43,668 nucleotides of DNA, taken from the NCBI GenBank assembly GCA_023256835.1, contig JALREE010000146.1:1-43668 (forward strand). The letters are read 5' to 3'. Shown piece after piece: positions 16,494 to 33,243 of this stretch (positions are counted from its first letter, which is position 1; each line of letters begins with the position of its first letter). The notes below the pieces were generated by a model. The model was not told the DNA's origin. It was given only the letters and a program-made list of their open reading frames with translations, and did not search any database. Source of the stretch: Pseudomonadales bacterium (lineage in GTDB: Bacteria > Pseudomonadota > Gammaproteobacteria > Pseudomonadales > Pseudohongiellaceae). The position numbers and the translations under genes are program-made.

Positions 16494-19400
16494 TCAGTGG
16501 CCAACTCCCGGCGTCATCCGGGGTTTGGAGGTGTCATTGCCACTGCCGAATCGGCTGCGCAGGCTGCGCAGATGCTCGCGCAGCCTGCTCGGCAGGGCCA
16601 GCATGGCCGGCGTGATGATCAGCGTCAGAATCGTGCCGAAGGTCAGGCCGTACACGATCGCACTTGCCAGCTGGACCCACTGCGACGTGATCGGCCCGCC
16701 CACTTCCACTTCGGCCAGGATCAGATCGATCGAGACGTGCATGGCCAGCGGCAGCAGCCCGAACCCCGTCGTGAATGTTGTCAGGAACACCGGGCGCAGA
16801 CGCTGCACCCCTGTCTGCACGATCACTTCCTCCAGGCTCCAGTCCTGGCGCGTTCTGCGCAGATAATTGAACGTGTCGATCAGGATGATGTTGTTGTTCA
16901 CGATGATGCCCGCGAGTGCCACGATGCCCACACCTGTCAGGATCACGCTGAAGGTCTGCCCCGTGAGAAGCAGGCCGAGCAGCACGCCAGTGGTCGAGAG
17001 CAGCACGGCGGAAAGGATAAGCAGTGTCTGGTAGAAACTGTTGAACTGAGTCACCAGCAGAATTGCCATCAGCATCAGGGAAATGCCGAAGGCCTGCATC
17101 AGGAACGCGAAGGACTGCTCCTGCTCCTCATTGGCCCCACGGAACTGATAGTCAACGCCGGGCATCATCGGGTTGGTTTCCAGCCACTGCTCCAGCTCCA
17201 CCAGCTTGTTGGCCGTGACCACGCCGGGTGCCGGGTTGGCGCGCACGTAGATGACCTTGTTGCCATCCACGCGCTGGATCGAGCTGACCTTCGGTTCTGG
17301 AACACGGGTGATGAAGCTGCTGACCGGGGCCGGGCCGCTGTTGGTGTTCACCATGATCTTCTCGATCTGCTCGAGGCCACGATACTCCTCGGGGTAGCGC
17401 ACACGAATGTCCACTTCTTCTTCCGTGTCGTCCGGACGGTAGTCGCCCATGCGCACGCCTTCGGTGAGCAGCTGCACAGCGGTGCCCACTTCGGTGATGT
17501 TCGCGCCGAACATGGCGGCGCGGGCACGGTCGACATTGATGGCCCATTCGATGCCGGGAATCGGCGTGGTGTCATCGATGTCGATCAGGCCTGTCATGCC
17601 GGTTTCCAGATGCTCCCGCACTCGATTAGCCTCGGTGATCAGATCATCGAGATTGTCTCCGAATATCTCGATCTGCAGCTCCTTGCCCACCGGCGGGCCC
17701 TGCTCGATGGTGGCAATCTCCGCGCGAACGCCGGGGATGTTGCTGATGGCCTCACGGTAGAGGTTCTCGATCTCGAAGCCATTGACGTCCCGGATGCGGC
17801 GGTCGGTGAACTCCACGAAGATCGTGCCCACCAGATCCGGTGCGGAACTCTGTCCGCCGCCCAGGCTCTGCCCGGCACCCGACTGGGTGACGACGTTCTT
17901 GTAGAAGCCCACGTCCATGATGCGCTGCTCGACATCCACCACCATGTCACGGATTTCCTCAGGCGAGAAATTACCTCGGGCGAACACCTGCACGCGCGTC
18001 TGATTGGGCTCTACGGCAGTGAAGAATTCCACGCCGGCGCCGTAGTTGAAGTAGGCGAGCACGATGCCGATCAGAGTGCCGAAGCTGCCCAGGAACACCA
18101 GCCCAGGCGAGCGTGCTGCAGTGCGCAGGACATTGGCGTAGAGGCGACTCACGCCTCGCAGACGCGAGGAATCCACTTCGTCGTGATGGACTGCGGTGAC
18201 GTTGCCCGCCACCTTGGGCTCCTTGGCGAACAAGGCACCGATGACGGGGGCGAACCAGAGTGCATACAGCAGGGATCCCACCAGCACCGCGAACACGGTG
18301 ATCGGCAGATAGCGCATGAATTCGCCTGCAACCCCCGGCCAGAACATCATGGGCAGGAAGGCCGCCAGTGTGGTGAGCGTGGACGCGATGATCGGCCAGA
18401 ACATGCGGTTCACGGCCTCTGCGTAGGCGTCTTCCTTGCTGTAGCCCTCGGCCATTCGCGTGTCGGCGAATTCCACCATCACGACCGCCCCGTCCACGAG
18501 CATGCCCAGACCGAGCAGCAGGCCGAAGATCACCATGAAATTGTAGGTGAAGCCCAGCATGGAGATGACGATGAAGGCGAAGAAGAACGAGAAGGGCACG
18601 GCCAGAGTCACGATGATGCCTGAGCGCACGCCGACGGCCGCGATGATCACGATCAGCACCAGCACCATCGAAGAGACCATGTTGCCCTGCAGGCCCAGGT
18701 TCTGCTCGATCACGATAGGCGCCGTGTTGTTCAGGTAGGCAATGGTCACGGCGGGAGGCAGTGTGGGCAGCATCTCCTCCACGATCACATCGATCTTGTC
18801 CATGGCCTCGATGAGGTTGGCGCCCTTGCGCTTCTGCACATCAATGGAGATGGAGCGCTCGCCATTGGCGTAGGAGTAGCGCTGCGCATCCTTGAAGGTG
18901 CGGCGCACTTCCGCGATGTCGCTGAGCGTCAGCACGCCGAACTGGTTCGCCGCGATGGGAATGTCGAACAGGTCTTCCTGCGTCTCGATCAGGCCTGGCA
19001 GCTTCACGGAAAAACTGCCTTGGCCTGTGTTCACGGCGCCGGCGGGGATCAGCCGGTTGTTGCTGGTCACTGCCTGCACGATCTGCTGGTTGGTGAGGCC
19101 GTAGGTCTCCAGCTGGGCGGGGTCGATGATCGCTTCCAGCAATTCCTCGCGATCACCCACCATGTCGGCGGACATGATCTCGGGCAGCGTCTCGATGCGG
19201 CGCTGCAGGTCCTGCGCCACTTGCAGCAGCACGCGTTCGGGCACGTCCTCGCCACTGATGGCGATCTGCACCAGGGGAACGGAGGCGGCCGAGACTTCCT
19301 GCACGATGGGTTCCTCGGTGGACTGCGGGAAGCGTGCCTGGGCGCGGTCGATGGCGGTGCGGATTTCCTGCAGGGCAATGGTCGAATCCAGCGTCACATC

Positions 19401-19685
19401 GAACTCGGCGATGATGGTCGCCGCGCCTTCACTGGAGAAGGAACTCACCTCGGTGATGCCTTCGACAGTCTTGAGCTCCACTTCCGCGGGCTTGGCCAGC
19501 AGTCGCTCGGCATCCTCGGGGGAAATGCCCTCGTGAATGATCGTGGTGACGATGATCGGCACCGACACATCCGGATTGAGCTCGACGGGAATGGTCAGAT
19601 AGGACACGAAGCCCGTGGCCATGATGGCCGCGAAGATGCTCAGTGTGGTTCTGGCCCGTGATACAGAGGCACGTATGTAGCGCAT
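16494..19685 (-). CDS. RND-family (AcrB-like) efflux transporter
   Basis: The 1063-residue inner-membrane protein has the RND plan: helix 1 (STIFAAIMATGFVSYLTIPVELNPDVS-like start), large periplasmic loop, helices 2-6, second loop, helices 7-12. It shows VELNPDVSVP, FPQSTEEP and, in helix 4 (about residue 395), LGMLVDGAVVMVEF. AcrB has two aspartates at this proton-relay site; here the second is glycine, as in a subgroup of HAE-1/CzcA-like pumps. It would export hydrophobic compounds by proton antiport with the adaptor encoded 13 bases upstream. No outer-membrane channel gene is adjacent, so a TolC-like protein elsewhere is presumably used. Substrate unknown. Confidence 0.93.
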   Translation of the reverse strand: MRYIRASVSRARTTLSIFAAIMATGFVSYLTIPVELNPDVSVPIIVTTIIHEGISPEDAERLLAKPAEVELKTVEGITEVSSFSSEGAATIIAEFDVTLDSTIALQEIRTAIDRAQARFPQSTEEPIVQEVSAASVPLVQIAISGEDVPERVLLQVAQDLQRRIETLPEIMSADMVGDREELLEAIIDPAQLETYGLTNQQIVQAVTSNNRLIPAGAVNTGQGSFSVKLPGLIETQEDLFDIPIAANQFGVLTLSDIAEVRRTFKDAQRYSYANGERSISIDVQKRKGANLIEAMDKIDVIVEEMLPTLPPAVTIAYLNNTAPIVIEQNLGLQGNMVSSMVLVLIVIIAAVGVRSGIIVTLAVPFSFFFAFIVISMLGFTYNFMVIFGLLLGLGMLVDGAVVMVEFADTRMAEGYSKEDAYAEAVNRMFWPIIASTLTTLAAFLPMMFWPGVAGEFMRYLPITVFAVLVGSLLYALWFAPVIGALFAKEPKVAGNVTAVHHDEVDSSRLRGVSRLYANVLRTAARSPGLVFLGSFGTLIGIVLAYFNYGAGVEFFTAVEPNQTRVQVFARGNFSPEEIRDMVVDVEQRIMDVGFYKNVVTQSGAGQSLGGGQSSAPDLVGTIFVEFTDRRIRDVNGFEIENLYREAISNIPGVRAEIATIEQGPPVGKELQIEIFGDNLDDLITEANRVREHLETGMTGLIDIDDTTPIPGIEWAINVDRARAAMFGANITEVGTAVQLLTEGVRMGDYRPDDTEEEVDIRVRYPEEYRGLEQIEKIMVNTNSGPAPVSSFITRVPEPKVSSIQRVDGNKVIYVRANPAPGVVTANKLVELEQWLETNPMMPGVDYQFRGANEEQEQSFAFLMQAFGISLMLMAILLVTQFNSFYQTLLILSAVLLSTTGVLLGLLLTGQTFSVILTGVGIVALAGIIVNNNIILIDTFNYLRRTRQDWSLEEVIVQTGVQRLRPVFLTTFTTGFGLLPLAMHVSIDLILAEVEVGGPITSQWVQLASAIVYGLTFGTILTLIITPAMLALPSRLREHLRSLRSRFGSGNDTSKPRMTPGVGH

Positions 19686-19698
19686 GTCAGTTGTCCGT

Positions 19699-20817
19699 TC
19701 AGAGGGTTGACCAGGAAGAATCGGGAATCACGGTCTGGCCGGCGAAGACAATCTCCTGACCATGAGTGATCACCTGCACGCTGGCGGGCAGGCCGGTCAC
19801 CCACATGCCGGGATCGACGCTGGTGTTCTCGCCCACGATGGTGACCGGTGCGAAGTGCACCAGGTTGCTGGCATCGACATGCTTGATGCCGATCAGGCCT
19901 GCGTCATCCATGGTGAGTGCAGAGGCCGGCACCAGATGGGCCTGGGTCTCGCTGGCGGCGATGTAGATCTCGGCAGTGATGCCCTGGCGAATCGACTGCT
20001 CGGTCGGGTCGATCTCGACTTCGATGGCGTAGCTTCGCGAGGTGCTGTCGGCCGCGCGGGAGATGTAGGTGACCTTGCCCGTCACGGATTCGCCGGAGAG
20101 CAGTGTGGCACTCACCGGTGCGCCAAGCGTCAGCTTGCCGACGTCCTGCTCCGCCACAAGGCCAGTCAGCAGCATTGGCGTGTCGTCGAGCAGGGAGGCG
20201 CACTGACCGCCCATGTCCATCAGATCGCCCACTTCCACGGCGCGGGTTTCCATGATGCCGGCGAACGGTGCGGTGATGCGGGTACGCTGCAAGGAGAGTT
20301 CGGCACGCTTGACGGCGGCGGTGGAGGAATCGAGCGCCGCCTTGAGCTGGGCCAGGCCCACTCGGGACTGCAGGCCGCGCGCCTGCAGATCAAGGGCCCC
20401 TTGATACTCCATGCGCGCCTGCTCTTCTCGGCTGATGGCTTCCTGCAGATCGGTGGCGCGGGTGTCGATGGCGATCTCGCACAGCACGTCGCCGGCGTTC
20501 ACACGGGCACCACGTGTCACCGGGGTGGCCACCACGCGGCCGGCAGCTTCGGCGCGCACATCGACCAGGCGGAAGGCCTTGGTCTGGCCACGCACGCGCA
20601 CCTGCTGAGTGTAGTTCTGTGCGTCGATACGAGCCACTCGCACGGTGAAGGTCTGATTGTCACTGGTAATGGGAGTGTCGCCTGCGACAGCCGTCACCGC
20701 TGCATCGCTTGCCGGCAGCGCGTAACCGTCGTCCAGTGCGCCGCGCTCGCGCGGCCAGGCCATCCATACCACAACGACAACAACCAGCGCGATGGCTGTC
20801 ACATGTTTGATTTTCAC
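19699..20817 (-). CDS. RND periplasmic adaptor (membrane fusion protein, HlyD-like)
   Basis: The product (~372 residues) has an N-terminal membrane anchor (AIALVVVVVVWMAW), a biotinyl-lipoyl half (VRAEAAGRVVATPVTRGARVNAGDVLCEI), a coiled-coil hairpin (LQEAISREEQARMEYQGALDLQARGLQS), the second lipoyl half (ITAPFAGIMETRAVEVGDLM) and beta-barrel and membrane-proximal domains. It links the RND pump to an outer-membrane channel. I prefer the GTG at 20817 because GGAG lies 6 bases upstream; a TTG at 20829 in the same frame is possible but would put that ribosome site inside the gene. It precedes the RND gene by 13 bases. Confidence 0.9.
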   Translation of the reverse strand: MKIKHVTAIALVVVVVVWMAWPRERGALDDGYALPASDAAVTAVAGDTPITSDNQTFTVRVARIDAQNYTQQVRVRGQTKAFRLVDVRAEAAGRVVATPVTRGARVNAGDVLCEIAIDTRATDLQEAISREEQARMEYQGALDLQARGLQSRVGLAQLKAALDSSTAAVKRAELSLQRTRITAPFAGIMETRAVEVGDLMDMGGQCASLLDDTPMLLTGLVAEQDVGKLTLGAPVSATLLSGESVTGKVTYISRAADSTSRSYAIEVEIDPTEQSIRQGITAEIYIAASETQAHLVPASALTMDDAGLIGIKHVDASNLVHFAPVTIVGENTSVDPGMWVTGLPASVQVITHGQEIVFAGQTVIPDSSWSTL

Positions 20818-21187
20818 GTCGATCTCCAATTATCGAAAGGTTTGCGCGGCCGCCACTCTGGCCGCCCATGGCATCCGTTGTCCTGCTTTCCGGGCAAGTT
20901 GTACGACAGAAACACGGGAAGTGGTCGCTACGGCCCTCATCAAAAAGGCGCCGTGTGTCTCTGGAATGGTTAGCTTGGACTGCTGATTTATTTTGGGAAT
21001 GGCAGAAGTGACATGGCACTGCATTGTGGGCCCACGGCAGCAGCGTTCAGGGATACCCACTTTTTTGTGAGCGCATTGTAACCGAGCAGGCAAGCATTGC
21101 AACGCCGTGATTCTCCTCCGCCAGAGGCATTCACTGCGATTCTCTGGTCAATAATTGGCCTGTCTACGCGGGAAGGTGGAGTCTGGA
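20818..21187. other. Intergenic region upstream of the efflux operon
   Basis: About 370 bases separate the response regulator stop from the adaptor start, both on the - strand. No credible ORF is present. It holds one reasonable - strand promoter (21075-21102) and would be the place for operators of the efflux operon. The long leader this implies (about 250 bases) leaves room for another promoter closer to the gene that I could not identify. Confidence 0.5.
21075..21102 (-). promoter_or_regulatory. Candidate sigma-70 promoter for the efflux operon
   Basis: Read on the - strand: TTGCAA (21102-21097), 16-base spacer, TACAAT (21080-21075). The -10 box matches the consensus at 5 of 6 positions, the -35 at 4 of 6. 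Predicted start near 21068, leaving a long untranslated leader before the adaptor gene. Confidence 0.4.
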
Positions 21188-21724
21188 TCAGCGCTGCACA
21201 GGGCGCTTCTGCAACTTGCGCTGCAGGGTCCGGCGGTGCATCTTCAGCTGGCGTGCGGTTTCGGAGATGTTGCCGTCGTTTTCCTTCAGCACTTTCTGGA
21301 TGTGTTCCCATTCCAGGCGTCGGACCGACATGGGTTCCTGCACGGCCGCGTCGTCGAGGTGGACGGTGGGCTGCGCGGTCAATGCCGCGAGGATTTCGTC
21401 GGCATCGGCTGGTTTGGCGAGGTAATTGTCGGCACCCAGCTTGATGGCATCCACGGCCGTGGCAATACTGGCATATCCGGTCAAGACGAGAATGTGGATG
21501 CCGGGATACTGCTCCTTCAGCACAGGGATCAGTGGCAGTGACGAGTGGCCGCCAAGATTCAGGTCAAGCACCGCCAGATCGAAGTCCTGTTCACTCAGCA
21601 AGGCCGCGGTGTCGCCAAGGCTGGTGGCATGGTGAACCATAAGGCCGCGTTGACGCAGCGCGCGACTGATCACATGGGCGAATGCCTCGTCGTCTTCCAC
21701 CAGCAACAGATTCAACCCTTCCAT
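21188..21724 (-). CDS. regA: RegA/RoxR-type redox response regulator
   Basis: The 178-residue protein has a receiver domain with the acidic pocket VEDDE, phospho-acceptor D54 (AVLDLNLGG) and the conserved lysine in LAKPAD, joined by a short linker to a Fis-type helix-turn-helix (NISETARQLKMHRRTLQRKL). This short HTH ending is diagnostic for RegA/PrrA/ActR/RoxR regulators, which control respiration, carbon and nitrogen genes in response to redox state. It is encoded just after its kinase, whose 3' end it overlaps by 13 bases. Its position upstream of the efflux genes suggests, but does not show, that it regulates them. The regA name is by family; roxR is used in pseudomonads. Confidence 0.9.
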   Translation of the reverse strand: MEGLNLLLVEDDEAFAHVISRALRQRGLMVHHATSLGDTAALLSEQDFDLAVLDLNLGGHSSLPLIPVLKEQYPGIHILVLTGYASIATAVDAIKLGADNYLAKPADADEILAALTAQPTVHLDDAAVQEPMSVRRLEWEHIQKVLKENDGNISETARQLKMHRRTLQRKLQKRPVQR

Positions 21725-23109
21725 GGCATCTCCCCCGGGTTGCCGGCGCCTGGCGCATTGCCTTCGGCGGCGGTGGTCGGCAGGCGAATGATGCTCATGG
21801 CGCCTCCAGATTTGCGATTGAACATCTCGATGCTGCCGGCATGACGCGTGATGGCCGCATTGGCCAGAAAGATGCCCAGCCCCATGCTGTCCTTGCGGGT
21901 GGAGATGAAAGGCTCGCCCATGTTCTCCATGACCGAGGCCGGAATGCCGGGGCCATCATCCTGGATACAGATCTCCATGCACTGGCCGCGCTCACGTTCG
22001 GCAGGGCAGGGGCGACAAAACACGTCAACCTGACTGCTGGCCGCCTTGATGGCATTCTCGATCAGGTTGATGACGGCGTGACGCAGGCTCAGGTCGGCGG
22101 CGATGCGCAGCGTGTCTGCCGCGGCATCCACCTGAAACTTCACGCTGGCGCGGGGGTGAATGTTGACGATGTAGTCGCGAATGTCAGCGATCAGCTCGGC
22201 ACCCGTACTCCCTTGCAGCTCCGCGCGATTGGACTTGTTGTAGAACTGGGTCAGCTGATTGAGCGACTCCTTGCAGCGCACCACCTGTTGACGAAGCAGG
22301 CTGATGTCTTCCTTGAGCGGCGTGCGGGCGAGTTCGTCCGCGCTGAGCTTGTCCAGATCCGTGAGCAGGACCGACATGGTGGCCAGTGGTGTGCCGAGGG
22401 CATGGGCAGTGCCGGCTGCCAGGGTGCCTATGGCCACCAGTTGTTCATTGCGCATCTCGTTCTCGCGCGCCTTGGCCAGCGTCAGTTCGCGGCTGCGGAT
22501 GGCGGCCGCCATGCGCGTGACGAAGACAGTGATGAGCATGGCACTGAGCACGAAGGTGACCCACATGCCTACCAGGTGCAGTTGAAAGTTCACCATCATG
22601 TGATCGGTGTGTTCATTCTGCAGTTCACTCAGCAGGAAGAACGTGTACGTCAGGATGCTGCCGACGGAGTACAGGGTGACATAGCCCTGATTCAACAAGG
22701 TCGCGCCCACCGCCAGCAGCACCAGCAGGTAGGAAATCATGGGATTGCTGGCGCCGCCGGTGTCCAGCAAGAGCACGATCAGGAAGGCGGCATCCACCAC
22801 CAGTTGGGCAAACAGCTCTTTCTGGGTGATGAGCGTGGCTCGACGCAGCCGCCAGTAGCCGACGGCAAGCGATGCCGCGATGCCAGCCACCAGGCCCAGC
22901 AGGAACAGCGGGGCGATGTTCAGCGGCGAGAAGGCGTGAAAGATCGCTGCGCCTGTCAGGCCCAGCAGGGTCACGAGCAGACGCAGCAGCAACAGTCTTT
23001 GCAGGGCCTGTCGCGCCGAGCTCTCGGTGCCGGCCGGTTCCGGCCGCAGGATCTCCAGTACGCGCTCGCGCAGGGAGGGACGTGTCACGGGGCTTGTCAT
23101 GGTCGGCAT
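21712..23109 (-). CDS. regB: RegB/RoxS-type redox-sensing histidine kinase
   Basis: The 465-residue inner-membrane kinase has about six helices in residues 35-198. The loop GGASNPM (118-124) corresponds to the RegB quinone-binding motif GGxxNPF with F replaced by M. The H-box AAGTAHALGTPLATM holds the phospho-histidine H236, and C279 in VVRCKESL corresponds to the redox-active cysteine of RegB (C265). N, G1 and G2 boxes follow (NLIENAIKAA, DDGPGIP, GLGIFLANA). It should sense quinone/redox state and phosphorylate the regulator encoded next to it. Start 23109 or the in-frame ATG at 23100 are both possible. It is divergent from the methyltransferase-acetyltransferase gene. Confidence 0.92.
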   Translation of the reverse strand: MPTMTSPVTRPSLRERVLEILRPEPAGTESSARQALQRLLLLRLLVTLLGLTGAAIFHAFSPLNIAPLFLLGLVAGIAASLAVGYWRLRRATLITQKELFAQLVVDAAFLIVLLLDTGGASNPMISYLLVLLAVGATLLNQGYVTLYSVGSILTYTFFLLSELQNEHTDHMMVNFQLHLVGMWVTFVLSAMLITVFVTRMAAAIRSRELTLAKARENEMRNEQLVAIGTLAAGTAHALGTPLATMSVLLTDLDKLSADELARTPLKEDISLLRQQVVRCKESLNQLTQFYNKSNRAELQGSTGAELIADIRDYIVNIHPRASVKFQVDAAADTLRIAADLSLRHAVINLIENAIKAASSQVDVFCRPCPAERERGQCMEICIQDDGPGIPASVMENMGEPFISTRKDSMGLGIFLANAAITRHAGSIEMFNRKSGGAMSIIRLPTTAAEGNAPGAGNPGEMPWKG

Positions 23110-23230: not shown

Positions 23231-24979
23231 ATGAATCCCCGCCTTCTGCCCTTTCCCTTGAATGTGTATGCACAGACGCTGGCCCTAGCGTCGGGCGCGC
23301 CGGCTGAACTGCTGCACTTCGGGGTGTTCGATACCGAGGCCGAACTGGCGGAGGGCTACCCTGCAGCAGAGCGCAGGGCACAGCGGCACCTGCTGACGCT
23401 CGTGTTGCCACCTCCGGCCCGCGTGCTGGAAGTGGGCTGCGGTTCGGGCAGCCTGGCGCGCGATCTGGCCCTGCAGGGCTACGAGGTCACGGCCATCACC
23501 GAGATCGAGGAAGAGTGGCGCAGCGCGTGTGCCCTGCCAGGGCAAAAGGCTCAGTGCGAATGGGTCAGCCTGAAGGAGTTTGCCGATGGCCGGCTCTTCG
23601 ACATCGTCCTGCTGCAGCAGTCCTCGCAGTATCTCGACCCCTTGCTGCTGTTCTCCCGTGCCGCTGCCCTGCTGGGGGAAGGCGGACAACTGCTGCTGGC
23701 CGATGAATTCCTGCTCGATGACAGTCGCATGGAGCCGGAGTCCCGCCCGCTGCTGAGCAATTTCCTGCAACTGGCCGAGCGCTGCGGGTTTCAGGTGGCG
23801 CGGCAGCGTGAACTGGGCCGCCAGGTGGCCCCCGGCCTCACGCTGTTCGCCGCGCTGCTGGAGCGTCAACGCGCCGCCATTGCGGCCAGTCTGTCCATGA
23901 GCGAGGCGGTCTTGCAGGACTTGCAGCAGGCACTGCAGACGCAGGCCGGGAAATTCGCGCTGGCCCGGCTGGGCTATACCCTGCTGGATCTGCGCCGCGG
24001 GCCGGTCGAAGCGCTGCGCACGGAGTATGGCAGTGCCGGCTCCTTCACCCTGGACGAAGTGTGCCCCTTGTTCGAGCGCAGTTTCGAGGTGCCCTTCAGT
24101 GCGGCCGTTTGGCAGTGGAAGTATGGCGACGGCCGCGGGCGCGCCGTATGTGCGCGCCAGCAGGGGGAATTGATCGCCCACTACGGCGGGGCACCGCGCG
24201 CGATCCGCTATTTCGGCACCCCCTCGCGCGCTGTGCAGATCTGCGATGTGATGGTGCTGCCGGAGTATCGCAGCTTCGTGAGTCGCGACACGCTGTTCTT
24301 CAAGACGGCCGCGACCTTTCTGGAACAGCAGATCGGCAATTGTGCCGAACACTTGCTGGGCTTTGGCTTTCCGAATGCCCGCGTCTTGAAGGTGGCCTGC
24401 CGGCTTGGCTTGTACGATGTCACCGACAGTTTCATCGAGCTGCACTATCCGCGCGAGGGCACCGACGCCCGGGATGGCCTGCAGGTGCGGCCGCTGGCCC
24501 TGGCGAGCGAGGACTCTCGCTCCGCCGTCAGCCTGTGCTGGCAGCGCATGGCCGAGTCCCTGCAGACGGCCATTGTCGGCGTGCGCGACCTGGACTATCT
24601 GCAGTACCGCTATTGCCGCCACCCCTTGTGGGCGCAAGGCGTGTACGAGAGTCTGGCCGTGTGGGCCGAAGACGAGTCAGCGCCCGTGGCGATTGTCGTG
24701 CTGAAAACAGTGGGGCAGGAGCGGCTGTTGATGGACATCGTCGCCGCCGTGCAGGACATGCCCGGCGCGCTCACAGCCTTGCGTCACGCGCTGGCGGCGC
24801 AACAGCTTGGTCTGCACGCCAGGATCACCCGGGCGCAGTCCGCCGCTTTGCTCTTGCCGGGTACGCAGGTGCACGACCTGGACATCGAGATTCCCTGCAA
24901 TGTCTGGACGCGCGGCCCGTCTGCCGCCACCCTGGCGGGTGCCTGGTGGCTGACGGCGGGCGACATGGACTTCCTCTGA
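23231..24979 (+). CDS. SAM-dependent methyltransferase fused to GNAT-like acetyltransferase
   Basis: In this 582-residue protein residues ~40-220 are a class I methyltransferase: motif I VLEVGCGSG (about 65-73), an acidic residue after the second strand (ITEIEEEW) and post-motifs FDIVLLQQSSQYL and GGQLLLADEF. A linker (~225-265) leads to a GNAT-like part (~270-580): RSFEVPFSAAVWQWKYGDG, a strand VQICDVMVLPEYRSFVSRDTLFF (about 333-355) with the acetyl-CoA-loop position, FGFPNARVLKVACRLGL, and a second weaker repeat towards the end. The N-terminal residues before 40 are unassigned. A soluble bifunctional enzyme is likely; the substrate is not evident. It stands alone, divergent from regB and convergent with the TonB receptor. 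Confidence 0.75.
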   Translation: MNPRLLPFPLNVYAQTLALASGAPAELLHFGVFDTEAELAEGYPAAERRAQRHLLTLVLPPPARVLEVGCGSGSLARDLALQGYEVTAITEIEEEWRSACALPGQKAQCEWVSLKEFADGRLFDIVLLQQSSQYLDPLLLFSRAAALLGEGGQLLLADEFLLDDSRMEPESRPLLSNFLQLAERCGFQVARQRELGRQVAPGLTLFAALLERQRAAIAASLSMSEAVLQDLQQALQTQAGKFALARLGYTLLDLRRGPVEALRTEYGSAGSFTLDEVCPLFERSFEVPFSAAVWQWKYGDGRGRAVCARQQGELIAHYGGAPRAIRYFGTPSRAVQICDVMVLPEYRSFVSRDTLFFKTAATFLEQQIGNCAEHLLGFGFPNARVLKVACRLGLYDVTDSFIELHYPREGTDARDGLQVRPLALASEDSRSAVSLCWQRMAESLQTAIVGVRDLDYLQYRYCRHPLWAQGVYESLAVWAEDESAPVAIVVLKTVGQERLLMDIVAAVQDMPGALTALRHALAAQQLGLHARITRAQSAALLLPGTQVHDLDIEIPCNVWTRGPSAATLAGAWWLTAGDMDFL

Positions 24980-27041: not shown

Positions 27042-27165
27042 GCGGTGATCCTCGGGTTTGTGCTCTTCTTGTGATGTGCTATCTTCGCGGCGAGTCCGCC
27101 TGGGGCAGTGCCGCCGCGCCATGGGTGCCAGAGTCTAAGCGCCTTGCGCGGGCGCCCTGAAGCCT

Positions 27166-27193
27166 GGCCTTGGGAAGGCCGCGACTGTTTTTT
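27166..27193 (+). terminator. Hairpin with T-run in the leader of the BlaI-type gene
   Basis: GGCCTT (27166-27171), loop GGG, AAGGCC (27175-27180), then GCGACTG and six T (27188-27193). This is a plausible intrinsic terminator on the + strand. It lies upstream of the repressor gene, where it could act as an attenuator or shield the gene from read-through; the divergent receptor gene starts on its other side. Confidence 0.45.
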
Positions 27194-27236
27194 GCAACAC
27201 ATTGAAATAATTAAACTAAAAAGGAAGCAAAAAGAC
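27194..27236. promoter_or_regulatory. AT-rich tract between divergent receptor and repressor genes
   Basis: A stretch such as ACATTGAAATAATTAAACT is strikingly AT-rich against the GC-rich background and sits 40-85 bases before the repressor start. It very likely holds promoter or operator sites. I cannot assign unambiguous -35/-10 boxes, nor a clear BlaI TACA-N2-TGTA box or Fur box. Confidence 0.4.
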
Positions 27237-27278
27237 CGTGCGGCAGTCGGTTTTCGACCGCGCGGTGTGCCGATCCCG

Positions 27279-27695
27279 ATGATCAAGAAACGTTCTGCCT
27301 CGAACATGCTGCCCAATACCCTGGGCGAACTGGAGCTGGGAGTGCTGGAAGCGCTCTGGCAGGAAGCCGACCTGGATGCCAAGGCCATCTGCCAGCGCAT
27401 TCCCGCCATCCGGCAGCCATCCCTGAGCACCGTGCAATCCACCCTGGAGCGACTACACCGCAAGGAGCTGGTCAGCCGCACCAAGTCCGGGCACGCCTAT
27501 ACCTATGCCCCGCGCGTCTCCCGTTCCAATCTGCTGGGACGCCTGATGGGCGACATCATTCACCTGCTGCACGACGGCAAGCTCGAGACCATCCTCAGCA
27601 GTTTCGTCACCGTGGCGGCCGACCTGGACGATTCCTCGCTGGCCGATCTCGAGGCGCTGATCGCCCGCAAGAAGCAGGAAAAGGCGCTGGCATGA
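27279..27695 (+). CDS. BlaI/MecI/CopY-family transcriptional repressor
   Basis: The ~138-residue protein has the family's winged helix: LGELELGVLEALWQE, AKAICQRIPA, SLSTVQSTLERLHRKELVSRTKSGHAYTYAPRVSR. The C-terminal helical dimerisation part follows. ATG 27279 gives normal family length; ATG 27306 is an alternative and neither has a strong ribosome site. Its stop overlaps the M56 peptidase start (ATGA), the classic repressor-sensor pair in which the membrane peptidase leads to repressor inactivation. Likely targets are its own operon and the divergent TonB receptor. Confidence 0.88.
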   Translation: MIKKRSASNMLPNTLGELELGVLEALWQEADLDAKAICQRIPAIRQPSLSTVQSTLERLHRKELVSRTKSGHAYTYAPRVSRSNLLGRLMGDIIHLLHDGKLETILSSFVTVAADLDDSSLADLEALIARKKQEKALA

Positions 27696-28663
27696 TGATC
27701 AACAGCGTCGGCACATTCGCGTCCATCTGGCTGGCCCTGTGGCTGGCACTGAGTGTGCTCTTCGTGCTGGTCTATCCGCTGCTGCGGCCGGCCTTGCTGA
27801 ACCTGCATCCTCGCCATGGCAGCACCTTGCTGCTGGCCTACTGGGTATTGCCCTTCGCGGCCTCGCTGCTCAGCACGCTGATTCTCTTCATGCCGCCGGC
27901 GGAGACGCTGCTGGTGGAGGCCCACTGCCACGAGGATTGCGCGAGTCATGTGCCGCTCATCGACTCTGCAGTGCTGGCGTGGTTCGGAATCGTGCTGGGC
28001 GCCGTGGTGGTGCTTGGCCTGGTCTGGCGCTTTGTCGCGACGCTGCACCGTTCGCGGCAGCTGCACGCCCAGTTCGATTTTCTTGGCCGGCGCCGTGGTG
28101 CCTGGTACGAGATGGAGTCCGACTGCCCGCTGGTCTTCACACTGGGCTGGTGGCGCCCGCGCATCTACCTGAGCAGCGGCTTGCGCGCCGCCTGCAGTGA
28201 GCAGGACCTGGACATCATCCTGCAGCACGAACGGGCGCATCAGGAGCGACGCGACAATCTACGCCTGCTCGTCGCCCGCCTGTGCTGTGCCATCCTGCCC
28301 GCGCCTCTGGCACAGCGTGTGCTGAGCGACCTGCAGGTCGTCACCGAGCAGGCCTGCGATTTTCGTGCAGCCGAACGCTGCGGTGAAGTGGCCGTGGCGG
28401 AGACCCTGCTGAAGATCAAGCGCTTGCTCCTGCAGCGACCGGCCAGCCTGCCGCAGGATGCCATGGCCTTCGCCGAGCGTGACGTGGAGGCCCGCATCAA
28501 GGCGCTGCTGGTGGCCTCCAGCCGTGTCACGCTGCAAGGCTGGCAATTGCTGGCACTGCTGGTCCTGGGCGTCGCTCTGCTCGGCGCCATGGTCGGGCCG
28601 CTGCATCATGGCTCGGAATGGGTCATTGACGCACTGGGGGCCCATGCCACCCTGCCGCATTGA
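27692..28663 (+). CDS. M56-family (BlaR1-like) membrane metallopeptidase without sensor domain
   Basis: The 323-residue protein has about four membrane helices: two at the N-terminus, one near 90-110 (VLAWFGIVLGAVVVLGLVW) and one near 285-300. The zinc site HERAH is at 179-183 on the cytoplasmic loop, and EQACDFRAAE supplies the likely third ligand. BlaR1 carries a periplasmic penicillin-binding domain at its C-terminus; here only about 20 residues follow the last helix, so beta-lactam sensing in the BlaR1 manner is not possible. It is coupled by 4-base overlap to the repressor gene. The signal it senses is unknown; the neighbouring receptor and barrel suggest an envelope or nutrient cue. Confidence 0.88.
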   Translation: MMINSVGTFASIWLALWLALSVLFVLVYPLLRPALLNLHPRHGSTLLLAYWVLPFAASLLSTLILFMPPAETLLVEAHCHEDCASHVPLIDSAVLAWFGIVLGAVVVLGLVWRFVATLHRSRQLHAQFDFLGRRRGAWYEMESDCPLVFTLGWWRPRIYLSSGLRAACSEQDLDIILQHERAHQERRDNLRLLVARLCCAILPAPLAQRVLSDLQVVTEQACDFRAAERCGEVAVAETLLKIKRLLLQRPASLPQDAMAFAERDVEARIKALLVASSRVTLQGWQLLALLVLGVALLGAMVGPLHHGSEWVIDALGAHATLPH

Positions 28664-29774: not shown

Positions 29775-31874
29775 TCACTCGCGCAGCGGCAGGCGCAACC
29801 AGGGGCCGTCCACGCGCTGCTGCGCCTCGCCCGGCTGACTGAAATCGCACACCCCCTGAGAGAACACTGCTTCCAGTCTGCTCCATTGCGCGTCGCTGAA
29901 GCTGACTGGGTAAGCGGCCCGTTCCAGAGGCCGGCGCGCACAGGCAATCAGGTCTTCCGCGAGTGCGCCACCGGCTGCGAGGCGGGGGCTGGCATGCACC
30001 GGGTACAGCCCGAGGCACTGTCCCGGGGACGACAGGTCGAGCACTTCCTCGATGCGCTCGTTCGCGGCTGTCCAGCAGGCGTCCACCGCCATGGCCGGTC
30101 GGGCCCGGCTCAGTCGTGTACGTGGCGGGGCATCCGGGTCCTGCGACTGCAAGGCATCCAGCCATCGGGTCATGGTCTGCAGCGCCAGCGTGCGCAGCGG
30201 TTCCAGCGGCAGGCTGGCGGCCTGGACCCAGATGCGCTGATTGTCGGCGTCCCCGTTGGCCTGGCGCAGTCGCTCGCGGATCTGCAGATCATGCAGGAAA
30301 TCCTGGGCATCCCCCTTCCCGTCGGTATAGGCGCGATACTGCAGGATCGGAATGCTGGCGAGCGACCCGGCCCCGCGGTTGATGCGCCCGCTGCGATAGG
30401 CCAGGGCGATACCTGCAGAAGGTGCCTGCGTGCGTTGCGCCACCCAGCGGCCGTCGCGATCCACCCCGCCAAGCCGTTCATTCAACTCCACGAAGGCATC
30501 CGGACCGATGCGGCCGTCGATCAAGGCCTGCAGGCCGTACTGCACGCCACGATTGTCCAGCACTTGATGGGCGAATCCGGTGCTCGGGTCCCGCCCGACG
30601 CTGGCGACATTGGTGTCGAACAAGGTGCAGCGCGCGCCGCCAGGATTGCGTTCGGGGTGGTAGACGAGGGCCTCGTCAATGCCGCACCCGGCTTCTGCCA
30701 CGATGACGTCCATCGGGCTGCTCGCCCAGGCCACGCAGGTGCCCGCGGAGAAGCCTTCCACTGCCTGGCGCTGCTCAGCGCTCCAGGCGAGGGAGGATTG
30801 CTCGAAATAGCGCTGCAGCAGCCGACAGTCGGTCACGGCATTGCGCATGCTGAAGGCGTCGGGCTCACTCATGCCGGGCAGCAGGCCGTTGAGCAGACCG
30901 GGGTAGTTCTGGGCGACGAGCAGAGTCAGTGCGGCGCCGCCTGCCTCGCCCAGTCCCAGGGTCCACACGGGTTCGCCATACTGTTCGATGAAGTGCTCCT
31001 TGAGCAGCATCGTCGTTTCGGCGGCCAGGACGTCATTGCACTGATGGCCCAGCACCATGAATGAGGAAACGGCATGGGCGAAACCTGCCCCGAGCAGCGT
31101 GGCGTCGAGCACGCTCTCCAGCGCGCGCGAGCCCTGGTTGTACTGCGTGCCGCAGCCGCCGCCATAACTGAAGGCCAGTCGCTGGTTCCAGCTGCGCACG
31201 GCATCCCATTCGCCATAGGTGCGGCGCGGGTCGTCCAGCACGGCGATGTGATAGAGCGCCCGATTGCGGGTGCCGGACTCCACGCGCACGATGAAAGGCA
31301 GGCGCTCACCGGGGCGGAACTCGGTGTAGGCCAGATCCTCGGGGTAGGGCGCGGTGATGTCGTTGATCTGCCGGAAGTCGCCCGCTTGGCTGCGGTAGAA
31401 ATGGCGAATCTGCGTCACCGTGGAACAGTCGGCGTCCAGGGGCTCGCCGAACCCCTGTTCTGTCGCGGTACACACGAAGGGCTGCAGGGCAGGGCCGCTG
31501 AACACAGGGCCAGTCGTCGAATGATTCAGCAGAGTGACCTGGGAGCGTGCGCTGCCGGCGCCGTCCATGGCCACCAGTGCGTTAGGGCCGTCACTCAGGC
31601 CGGTGACGAGCGCCTTGAGGCTGTTGTCGCGCGGGTCGAGCGAGAACAACTCGCTGATGTCGCGGCCGTCCAGAGCCACCTGCACGGTGTTGAGGGGTAC
31701 GCCGGCACTGGTGATCGAGATCAGCGCGTCGCCGCCACTCACCATGTCTGGACGAGTGGACAGCACATGAATGGCAATCGCTTGGGCGGGCGCTGGTTCG
31801 GGCGAAGGGGAGTCGCGACTGCAGGCCGTCAGCAAGCTGGCGAGCAGGATGGCGGGCAAGAGGGCGCGTGGCAT
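29775..31874 (-). CDS. DUF6351 (tannase-like) lipoprotein
   Basis: The chosen ATG (31874) has GGAG five bases upstream and starts a lipoprotein signal (PRALLPAILLASLLTAC, lipobox cysteine at ~18). The ~699-residue protein matches the tannase-like DUF6351 family: early IHVLSTRPDMVSGGDALI, later FPFIVRVESGTRNRALYHIAVL-like strands, YGGGCGTQYNQG, and the region TLGLGEAGGAALTLLVAQ followed by NYPGLLNGLLPG. At the nucleophile elbow the usual serine seems to be alanine (G-E-A-G-G), so activity is doubtful. It would sit on a membrane facing the periplasm. Located downstream of amtB on the same strand, behind a strong hairpin. Confidence 0.78.
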   Translation of the reverse strand: MPRALLPAILLASLLTACSRDSPSPEPAPAQAIAIHVLSTRPDMVSGGDALISITSAGVPLNTVQVALDGRDISELFSLDPRDNSLKALVTGLSDGPNALVAMDGAGSARSQVTLLNHSTTGPVFSGPALQPFVCTATEQGFGEPLDADCSTVTQIRHFYRSQAGDFRQINDITAPYPEDLAYTEFRPGERLPFIVRVESGTRNRALYHIAVLDDPRRTYGEWDAVRSWNQRLAFSYGGGCGTQYNQGSRALESVLDATLLGAGFAHAVSSFMVLGHQCNDVLAAETTMLLKEHFIEQYGEPVWTLGLGEAGGAALTLLVAQNYPGLLNGLLPGMSEPDAFSMRNAVTDCRLLQRYFEQSSLAWSAEQRQAVEGFSAGTCVAWASSPMDVIVAEAGCGIDEALVYHPERNPGGARCTLFDTNVASVGRDPSTGFAHQVLDNRGVQYGLQALIDGRIGPDAFVELNERLGGVDRDGRWVAQRTQAPSAGIALAYRSGRINRGAGSLASIPILQYRAYTDGKGDAQDFLHDLQIRERLRQANGDADNQRIWVQAASLPLEPLRTLALQTMTRWLDALQSQDPDAPPRTRLSRARPAMAVDACWTAANERIEEVLDLSSPGQCLGLYPVHASPRLAAGGALAEDLIACARRPLERAAYPVSFSDAQWSRLEAVFSQGVCDFSQPGEAQQRVDGPWLRLPLRE

Positions 31875-31894
31875 GAGGACTCCGGACGAAGCGC

Positions 31895-31918
31895 CGCGCC
31901 GGGACTTGTCCCGGCGCG
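31895..31918 (-). terminator. Hairpin after amtB
   Basis: CGCGCCGGGAC (31895-31905) and GTCCCGGCGCG (31908-31918) are perfect reverse complements 9 bases after the amtB stop. No T-run follows on the - strand, so it may terminate with help or stabilise the amtB message. It separates glnK-amtB from the lipoprotein gene. Confidence 0.5.
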
Positions 31919-31926
31919 GGCAGGTG

Positions 31927-33243
<1,317 letters not shown>

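Follow-up and report, generated by a model that had tools for sequence, protein, structure and literature searches.

The gene at positions 23231..24979 (+) of the window, by which we mean the whole stretch of 43,668 nucleotides that was analysed, joins a class I SAM-dependent methyltransferase (MT) to a tandem GNAT module, and this fusion is real, conserved and unnamed. We give about an even chance to the reading in which its product is a bifunctional decorator of surface-glycan amino sugars, with a PIG-L (LmbE-type) deacetylase as its partner in trans. This candidate partner was located by phylogenetic profile and not by neighbourhood, and the role as a surface-glycan decorator is a plausible one. 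The original prediction held that no pathway partner was apparent, which is correct for the neighbourhood of the gene but not genome-wide, where a PIG-L together with glycosyltransferases is suggested elsewhere.

The open reading frame encodes 582 amino acids followed by a stop, and its ATG start is backed by relatives with the identical opening MNPRxLxFPLNVYA. Pfam, AlphaFold2 and Foldseek agree with what had been predicted, namely a class I SAM methyltransferase joined to a GNAT region sized for two folds. The MT half (residues ~1-250, 23231..23980, +) carries a Methyltransf_11/23 match at residues 48-164 (E ~1.5e-7, above the curated Pfam cut-off), shows a Rossmann-like MT fold by all three methods, and matches BezA, FPP methyltransferases, SpnF, AtmM and MmaA in Foldseek; motif I for SAM binding (E/D-x-G-x-G-x-G) is intact as VLEVGCGSG at residues 65-73 (23423..23449, +). 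The first GNAT domain (residues ~258-410, 24002..24460, +, with approximate limits taken from the fold) bears the motifs HYGGxxRxIxYFG and DVMVxP and is recognised by Pfam as Acetyltransf_9 (PF13527) at residues 272-348 (E 1.2e-6, above the curated cut-off). The second (residues ~415-582, 24473..24976, +) has no Pfam match and is seen as a fold by Foldseek, in which it matches Eis and N-myristoyltransferase (NMT) structures end to end; because Pfam recognises only the first GNAT, we keep the earlier description of the second as degenerate. That there are two GNAT folds is supported by the Foldseek alignments to Eis-type two-GNAT proteins, the best of which run to ~310 columns of the 325 residues (2hv2, E 3e-14, TMq 0.67), while N-myristoyltransferases are weaker matches to the same half. 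The AlphaFold2 model of the whole protein, built with 50 relatives, has a pLDDT of 92.7 and a pTM of 0.89, and the GNAT half modelled alone (325 aa, ~258-582) has a pLDDT of 94.3. In a PDB sequence search with the GNAT half, the best relative was AAC(2')-Ic (E 0.0025), which N-acetylates amino sugars, with nothing significant beyond it, and a search of the gene's own genome for a paralogue returned a generic MT match only.

Our scan for relatives covered 84,980 species genomes and placed them at 80 loci, mostly with a full-length fused open reading frame. The fusion is widespread in the window's family, which we infer to be the one containing Pseudohongiella: the GNAT module is present in 116 of 137 genomes, fused in ~92 and stand-alone in 26 as split by frame length and identity, the stand-alone open frames being ~330-400 codons long. 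A PIG-L sugar N-deacetylase adjoins the stand-alone module in 22 of these 26 genomes, with 21 of the gaps measuring 66-221 bp. Of 14 genomes outside the family that carry the module, 10 have a PIG-L and 8 a Wzt_C no more than 10 kb from it, and at four loci (L110, L115, L116, L118) the module sits beside Wzm/Wzt and glycosyltransferases. Other genomes carry the module as part of longer chains. In L014 (1498-3774, -) and L015 (1498-3750, -) it is appended to the C-terminal end of a Wzt-type ABC ATPase that carries a Wzt_C domain, an unusual union of export ATPase and acyltransferase; PIG-L and Wzm are encoded alongside (full contexts L122 and L123). In L117 (6304-8901, +) one protein of 866 aa comprises PIG-L, GT2 and the tandem GNAT. 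A PIG-L-containing frame of 1538 aa adjoins a stand-alone module in G614 (L118). The stand-alone, MT-, Wzt- and PIG-L-fused forms of one uncharacterised tandem-GNAT module point to one pathway. A sugar substrate, one of those first proposed, gains indirect support from these relatives of the GNAT half, which adjoin PIG-L in surface-polysaccharide clusters, and from the resemblance of the MT half to sugar O-methyltransferases of the AtmM/RebM type, alongside other small-molecule MTs. The MT-only relatives (L016-L018) were discarded as a pathway clue since their surroundings share no common pathway.

The fused gene itself has no PIG-L or glycan cluster beside it; in single-contig genomes these lie megabases away, and in one of them (G225) the distance to a PIG-L/Wzm/Wzt cluster is 1.1 Mb. 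Across the family, however, module and PIG-L come and go together. Of the family genomes with a completeness of 90% or more, module and PIG-L are both present in 78 and both absent from 11, while 2 have just the module and 1 just PIG-L (Fisher 1.7e-11); across all 137 genomes the counts for both, module alone, PIG-L alone and neither are 108, 8, 8 and 13 (Fisher 4.7e-8). These statistics ignore shared descent. The absences are spread over genera g390, g387, g388, g4 and g3, so that more than one event lies behind the pattern. Fused and stand-alone forms occur together in only 2 of 137 genomes, and within genus g3 in 2 where 9.9 are expected (Fisher 5.5e-7, again ignoring shared descent), as expected if both forms do one job. 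One of the two genomes with both forms (G779) has an in-frame stop in its fused copy, and another genome (G709) combines a stand-alone copy with a broken fused remnant that also has an in-frame stop, though either break could be an assembly error.

In seven genomes with the fused gene (G111, G082, G138, G205, G045, G162 and G225) PIG-L lies ~2 kb from Wzt_C. Four clusters that were read (G111, G225, G184 and G082) have PIG-L directly beside Wzm/Wzt, and all of these except G082 additionally contain a GT2-like gene, an epimerase and dTDP-rhamnose-type genes. The window's own genus is arranged differently, its PIG-L sitting among glycosyltransferases and not with Wzm/Wzt. The window's genome has a single PIG-L, on another contig than the fused gene; its open frame, at a contig end, spans 1738 aa or more and includes GT2 and GT1 domains. 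In a close relative (G689), enough of the same protein is present for all three of PIG-L, GT2 and GT1 to be seen. This giant protein of ~1735 aa is found at L131 7165-12378 and L138 6081-11285 (both -), in the window's genome and its close relative. Wzt_C was found in 7 of 14 genomes of the genus, in the cases checked on other contigs than PIG-L, and was not found in the window's assembly, which is 77% complete; nor were Wzm/Wzt found encoded alongside the window's gene, unlike for the non-fused module relatives. The Wzt-linked clusters, moreover, have a PIG-L with another sequence (APHADDETFGMGG) than the one in the window's genus (APHPDDETLGCGG); the latter looks like a separate PIG-L subtype. 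Because PIG-L and Wzt_C are on separate contigs and the PIG-L differs, the link of the window to ABC export is weak. Its tie to a pathway of PIG-L and glycosyltransferases is of moderate strength.

We infer that the fused form serves the pathway of the stand-alone modules, and the substrate, the acyl donor, the activity of either half and the order of the steps are put forward in the same spirit. A surface glycan or lipid-linked precursor would first be built by glycosyltransferases, PIG-L would then strip an N-acetyl group and expose an amine, the Eis/NMT-like tandem GNAT half would place an acyl group on that amine, and the MT half would O- or N-methylate the acylated position or a neighbouring one. 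An acyl group other than acetyl is plausible here, as a plain acetyl would reverse the PIG-L step. Where relatives bear Wzm/Wzt, the position of the decorated residue would suit a role in the export step or next to it. A bolder version, which we consider rather improbable, is that tandem GNAT and PIG-L together replace the N-acetyl on a terminal amino sugar by a different acyl group, with methylation as well in forms that have an MT, and that Wzm/Wzt recognise this mark. The module would then be a new kind of enzyme that modifies glycan termini, and the Wzt-GNAT and PIG-L-GT-GNAT fusions would be single-chain versions of one machine.

The fusion is not a product of chance: 79 of its relatives form one clade (support 100/100), and full-length members reach down to ~31% identity. 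The window and 26 of 78 scored relatives have an intact motif I, so the SAM-binding residues have not been lost from all homologues; it is kept, as E-x-G-x-G-x-G or close to it, by the window's whole genus and by 15 Pseudohongiella-type rows. In the other 52 of the 78 it is lost. The loss marks one clade of 53 rows (support 100/99) and, separately, L113; it is thus derived and the window is unaffected. In the clade without the SAM motif the GNAT half is the better conserved, at 44% identity to the window against 24% for the MT half, and since the motif was lost in this one large clade we regard the GNAT half as the conserved core of the protein. Its retention there suggests that the MT reaction is dispensable in the lineage of 53 relatives and weakens the idea that both halves act jointly on one substrate, as originally proposed. 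One could go further and hold that the GNAT half is the sole working enzyme and that the MT half is decaying or structural even in the window's lineage, which the repeated loss of the motif, the stronger conservation of the GNAT half and the existence of stand-alone modules that do without an MT would favour; however, the window, its whole genus and the 15 Pseudohongiella-type rows keep motif I and the model of the MT fold is a high-confidence one, and we consider this unlikely, although it is the strongest of the competing explanations. As side observations, two contigs labelled Klebsiella pneumoniae and Rhodoferax (L064 and L078), whose close relatives of the gene fall within the window's family by branching, are probably mislabelled MAGs, and a distant MT-GNAT fusion at L124 (7836-9581, -; E 5.6e-9), with motif I intact and a GT2 gene adjoining, is possibly an independent case of the architecture.

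The near-invariant motifs of the GNAT half are HYGGxxRxIxYFG, CDVMVxP, LGFGFPN, RLGLY and WWLTAGDMDF, with GFGFPN at residues 377-382 (24359..24376, +) and the C-terminal WWLTAGDMDFL at 24944..24976 (+). The C-terminus lies one residue past the conserved F581 in all 87 relatives checked, which by analogy would fit a catalytic C-terminal carboxylate of the NMT kind, yet this is only suggestive because 2 of 7 control neighbour families likewise have (nearly) constant ends, and we dropped the fixed end as proof of NMT-like catalysis since the control was not clean. The position of the CoA pyrophosphate loop reads R347-S-F-V-S-R352 in the window (24269..24286, +), non-canonical against Q/RxxGxG/A, whereas non-fused modules read RG-x-L/V-T/S-K/R; Gly348 is retained in 4 of 29 fused against 12 of 14 non-fused modules. 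Many GNAT proteins have pyrophosphate loops that deviate from Q/R-x-x-G-x-G/A, so the deviant loop makes the use of acyl-CoA no more than putative but leaves the claim to a GNAT fold as it is.

As was originally reported, a RegB/RegA-like sensor kinase and regulator adjoin the gene, the kinase as its divergent left neighbour (21712..23109, -; synteny kept in 64 of 81 loci) and the regulator, with receiver and Fis HTH, at 21188..21724 (-). This regulator is followed in the window by HlyD-family and RND efflux genes (16497-21724), an order beside the fused gene that is kept at ~60 of 81 loci. On the right a TonB receptor is convergent with the fused gene. Further along are a pair formed by a BlaI-like repressor (Penicillinase_R) and a BlaR1-like M56 peptidase (27108-28663) and a tannase-like DUF6351 protein (29778-31991, -; E 2e-216). 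We considered the RegB/RegA-like, efflux, TonB receptor and BlaI/BlaR1-like genes as pathway partners and none fits; RegBA keeps its place in 64 of 81 loci, yet with the stand-alone modules located elsewhere the association is probably one of position only. In 57 of 81 loci the next gene downstream of the fusion, on the same strand, encodes an AMP-binding acyl-CoA synthetase (e.g. L038 9638-11296, +); in the window its place is taken by the TonB receptor. Together with the N-myristoyltransferases among the best fold matches, this gene invites an explanation in which the synthetase makes an acyl-CoA and an NMT-like GNAT half uses it to acylate an amino group on a lipid or small molecule. We think this somewhat less probable still, because no ortholog of the synthetase is present in the window's assembly (best match 36%), its linkage is found mainly in the clade without the SAM motif, the stand-alone modules have no comparable neighbour in the loci read, and the adjacency may be plain conserved gene order like that of regBA. 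For the same reason of its absence from the window's assembly, we rejected the synthetase as an obligatory partner. It is also compatible with the glycan decorator, but fits that reading only if it is the supplier of the donor; such a supply, speculative with the gene missing in the window, could provide the acyl group. That the protein instead serves in detoxification or antibiotic modification, like Eis and the aminoglycoside acetyltransferases, as the Eis-type nearest folds, the AAC(2')-Ic nearest PDB sequence and the nearby RND efflux pump might suggest, is very improbable, given that the gene is nearly universal in the family and fixed in place, unlike resistance genes, and that its module relatives sit in polysaccharide clusters.

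Should the glycan-decorator reading be right, N-deacetylation plus re-acylation, with methylation, would join the known decorations of surface glycans. Taken together, the forms of the module already lend a testable role to an orphan gene that is carried by most members of a bacterial family widespread in marine and fresh waters. The case also illustrates that phylogenetic profiles can reveal a partner invisible to gene neighbourhood. With the terms used, we found no paper in the open-access literature on a GNAT/PIG-L pair in polysaccharide synthesis. Known systems offer comparisons for the parts of the protein. N-myristoyltransferase, whose C-terminal carboxylate is the catalytic base (PMC4964394), resembles it in the tandem GNAT fold match and perhaps in the fixed C-terminal end, but at only 9-13% identity and a TMq of ~0.5. 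AtmM, RebM, BezA, SpnF and MitM, which are O- and C-methyltransferases of sugars and small molecules, share the MT fold and motif I at 16-24% identity but are stand-alone. In the mycothiol route, the LmbE/PIG-L deacetylase MshB frees an amino sugar. The two-GNAT acetyltransferase of that route is MshD (PMC4964394), and the pairing of a PIG-L deacetylase with a two-GNAT acetyltransferase is a parallel in working and not in membership: the context here is one of glycosyltransferases and Wzm/Wzt, MshD is absent among the top fold matches shown, and PIG-L adjoins the stand-alone modules but is on another contig for the window's gene. A second parallel in working, and again not in membership, is offered by ABC-exported O antigens, whose growing end can be capped with methyl groups that Wzt recognises (PMC9445017; WbdD, PMC3482155). 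The likeness to WbdD-type capping with Wzm/Wzt is the chemical modification of a glycan terminus by a methyltransferase; however, the fused gene lies outside the cluster and carries an acyltransferase half, and recognition by Wzt is hypothetical here. The closest likeness is to Eis-type tandem GNATs (2hv2, 3n7z and M. abscessus Eis2, 6rft), which share the two GNAT folds and Acetyltransf_9 (TMq 0.67). The GNAT half is only 10-16% identical to them with a differing CoA loop, and at 325 aa against chains of 380-407 aa it is ~60-80 residues shorter, with no room for the third, SCP2-like domain; because this domain is missing and the alignment uses up the query, we do not file the protein as an Eis. 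Set against the Eis type, the module of the window is distinguished by being joined to a methyltransferase and by having relatives in polysaccharide clusters.
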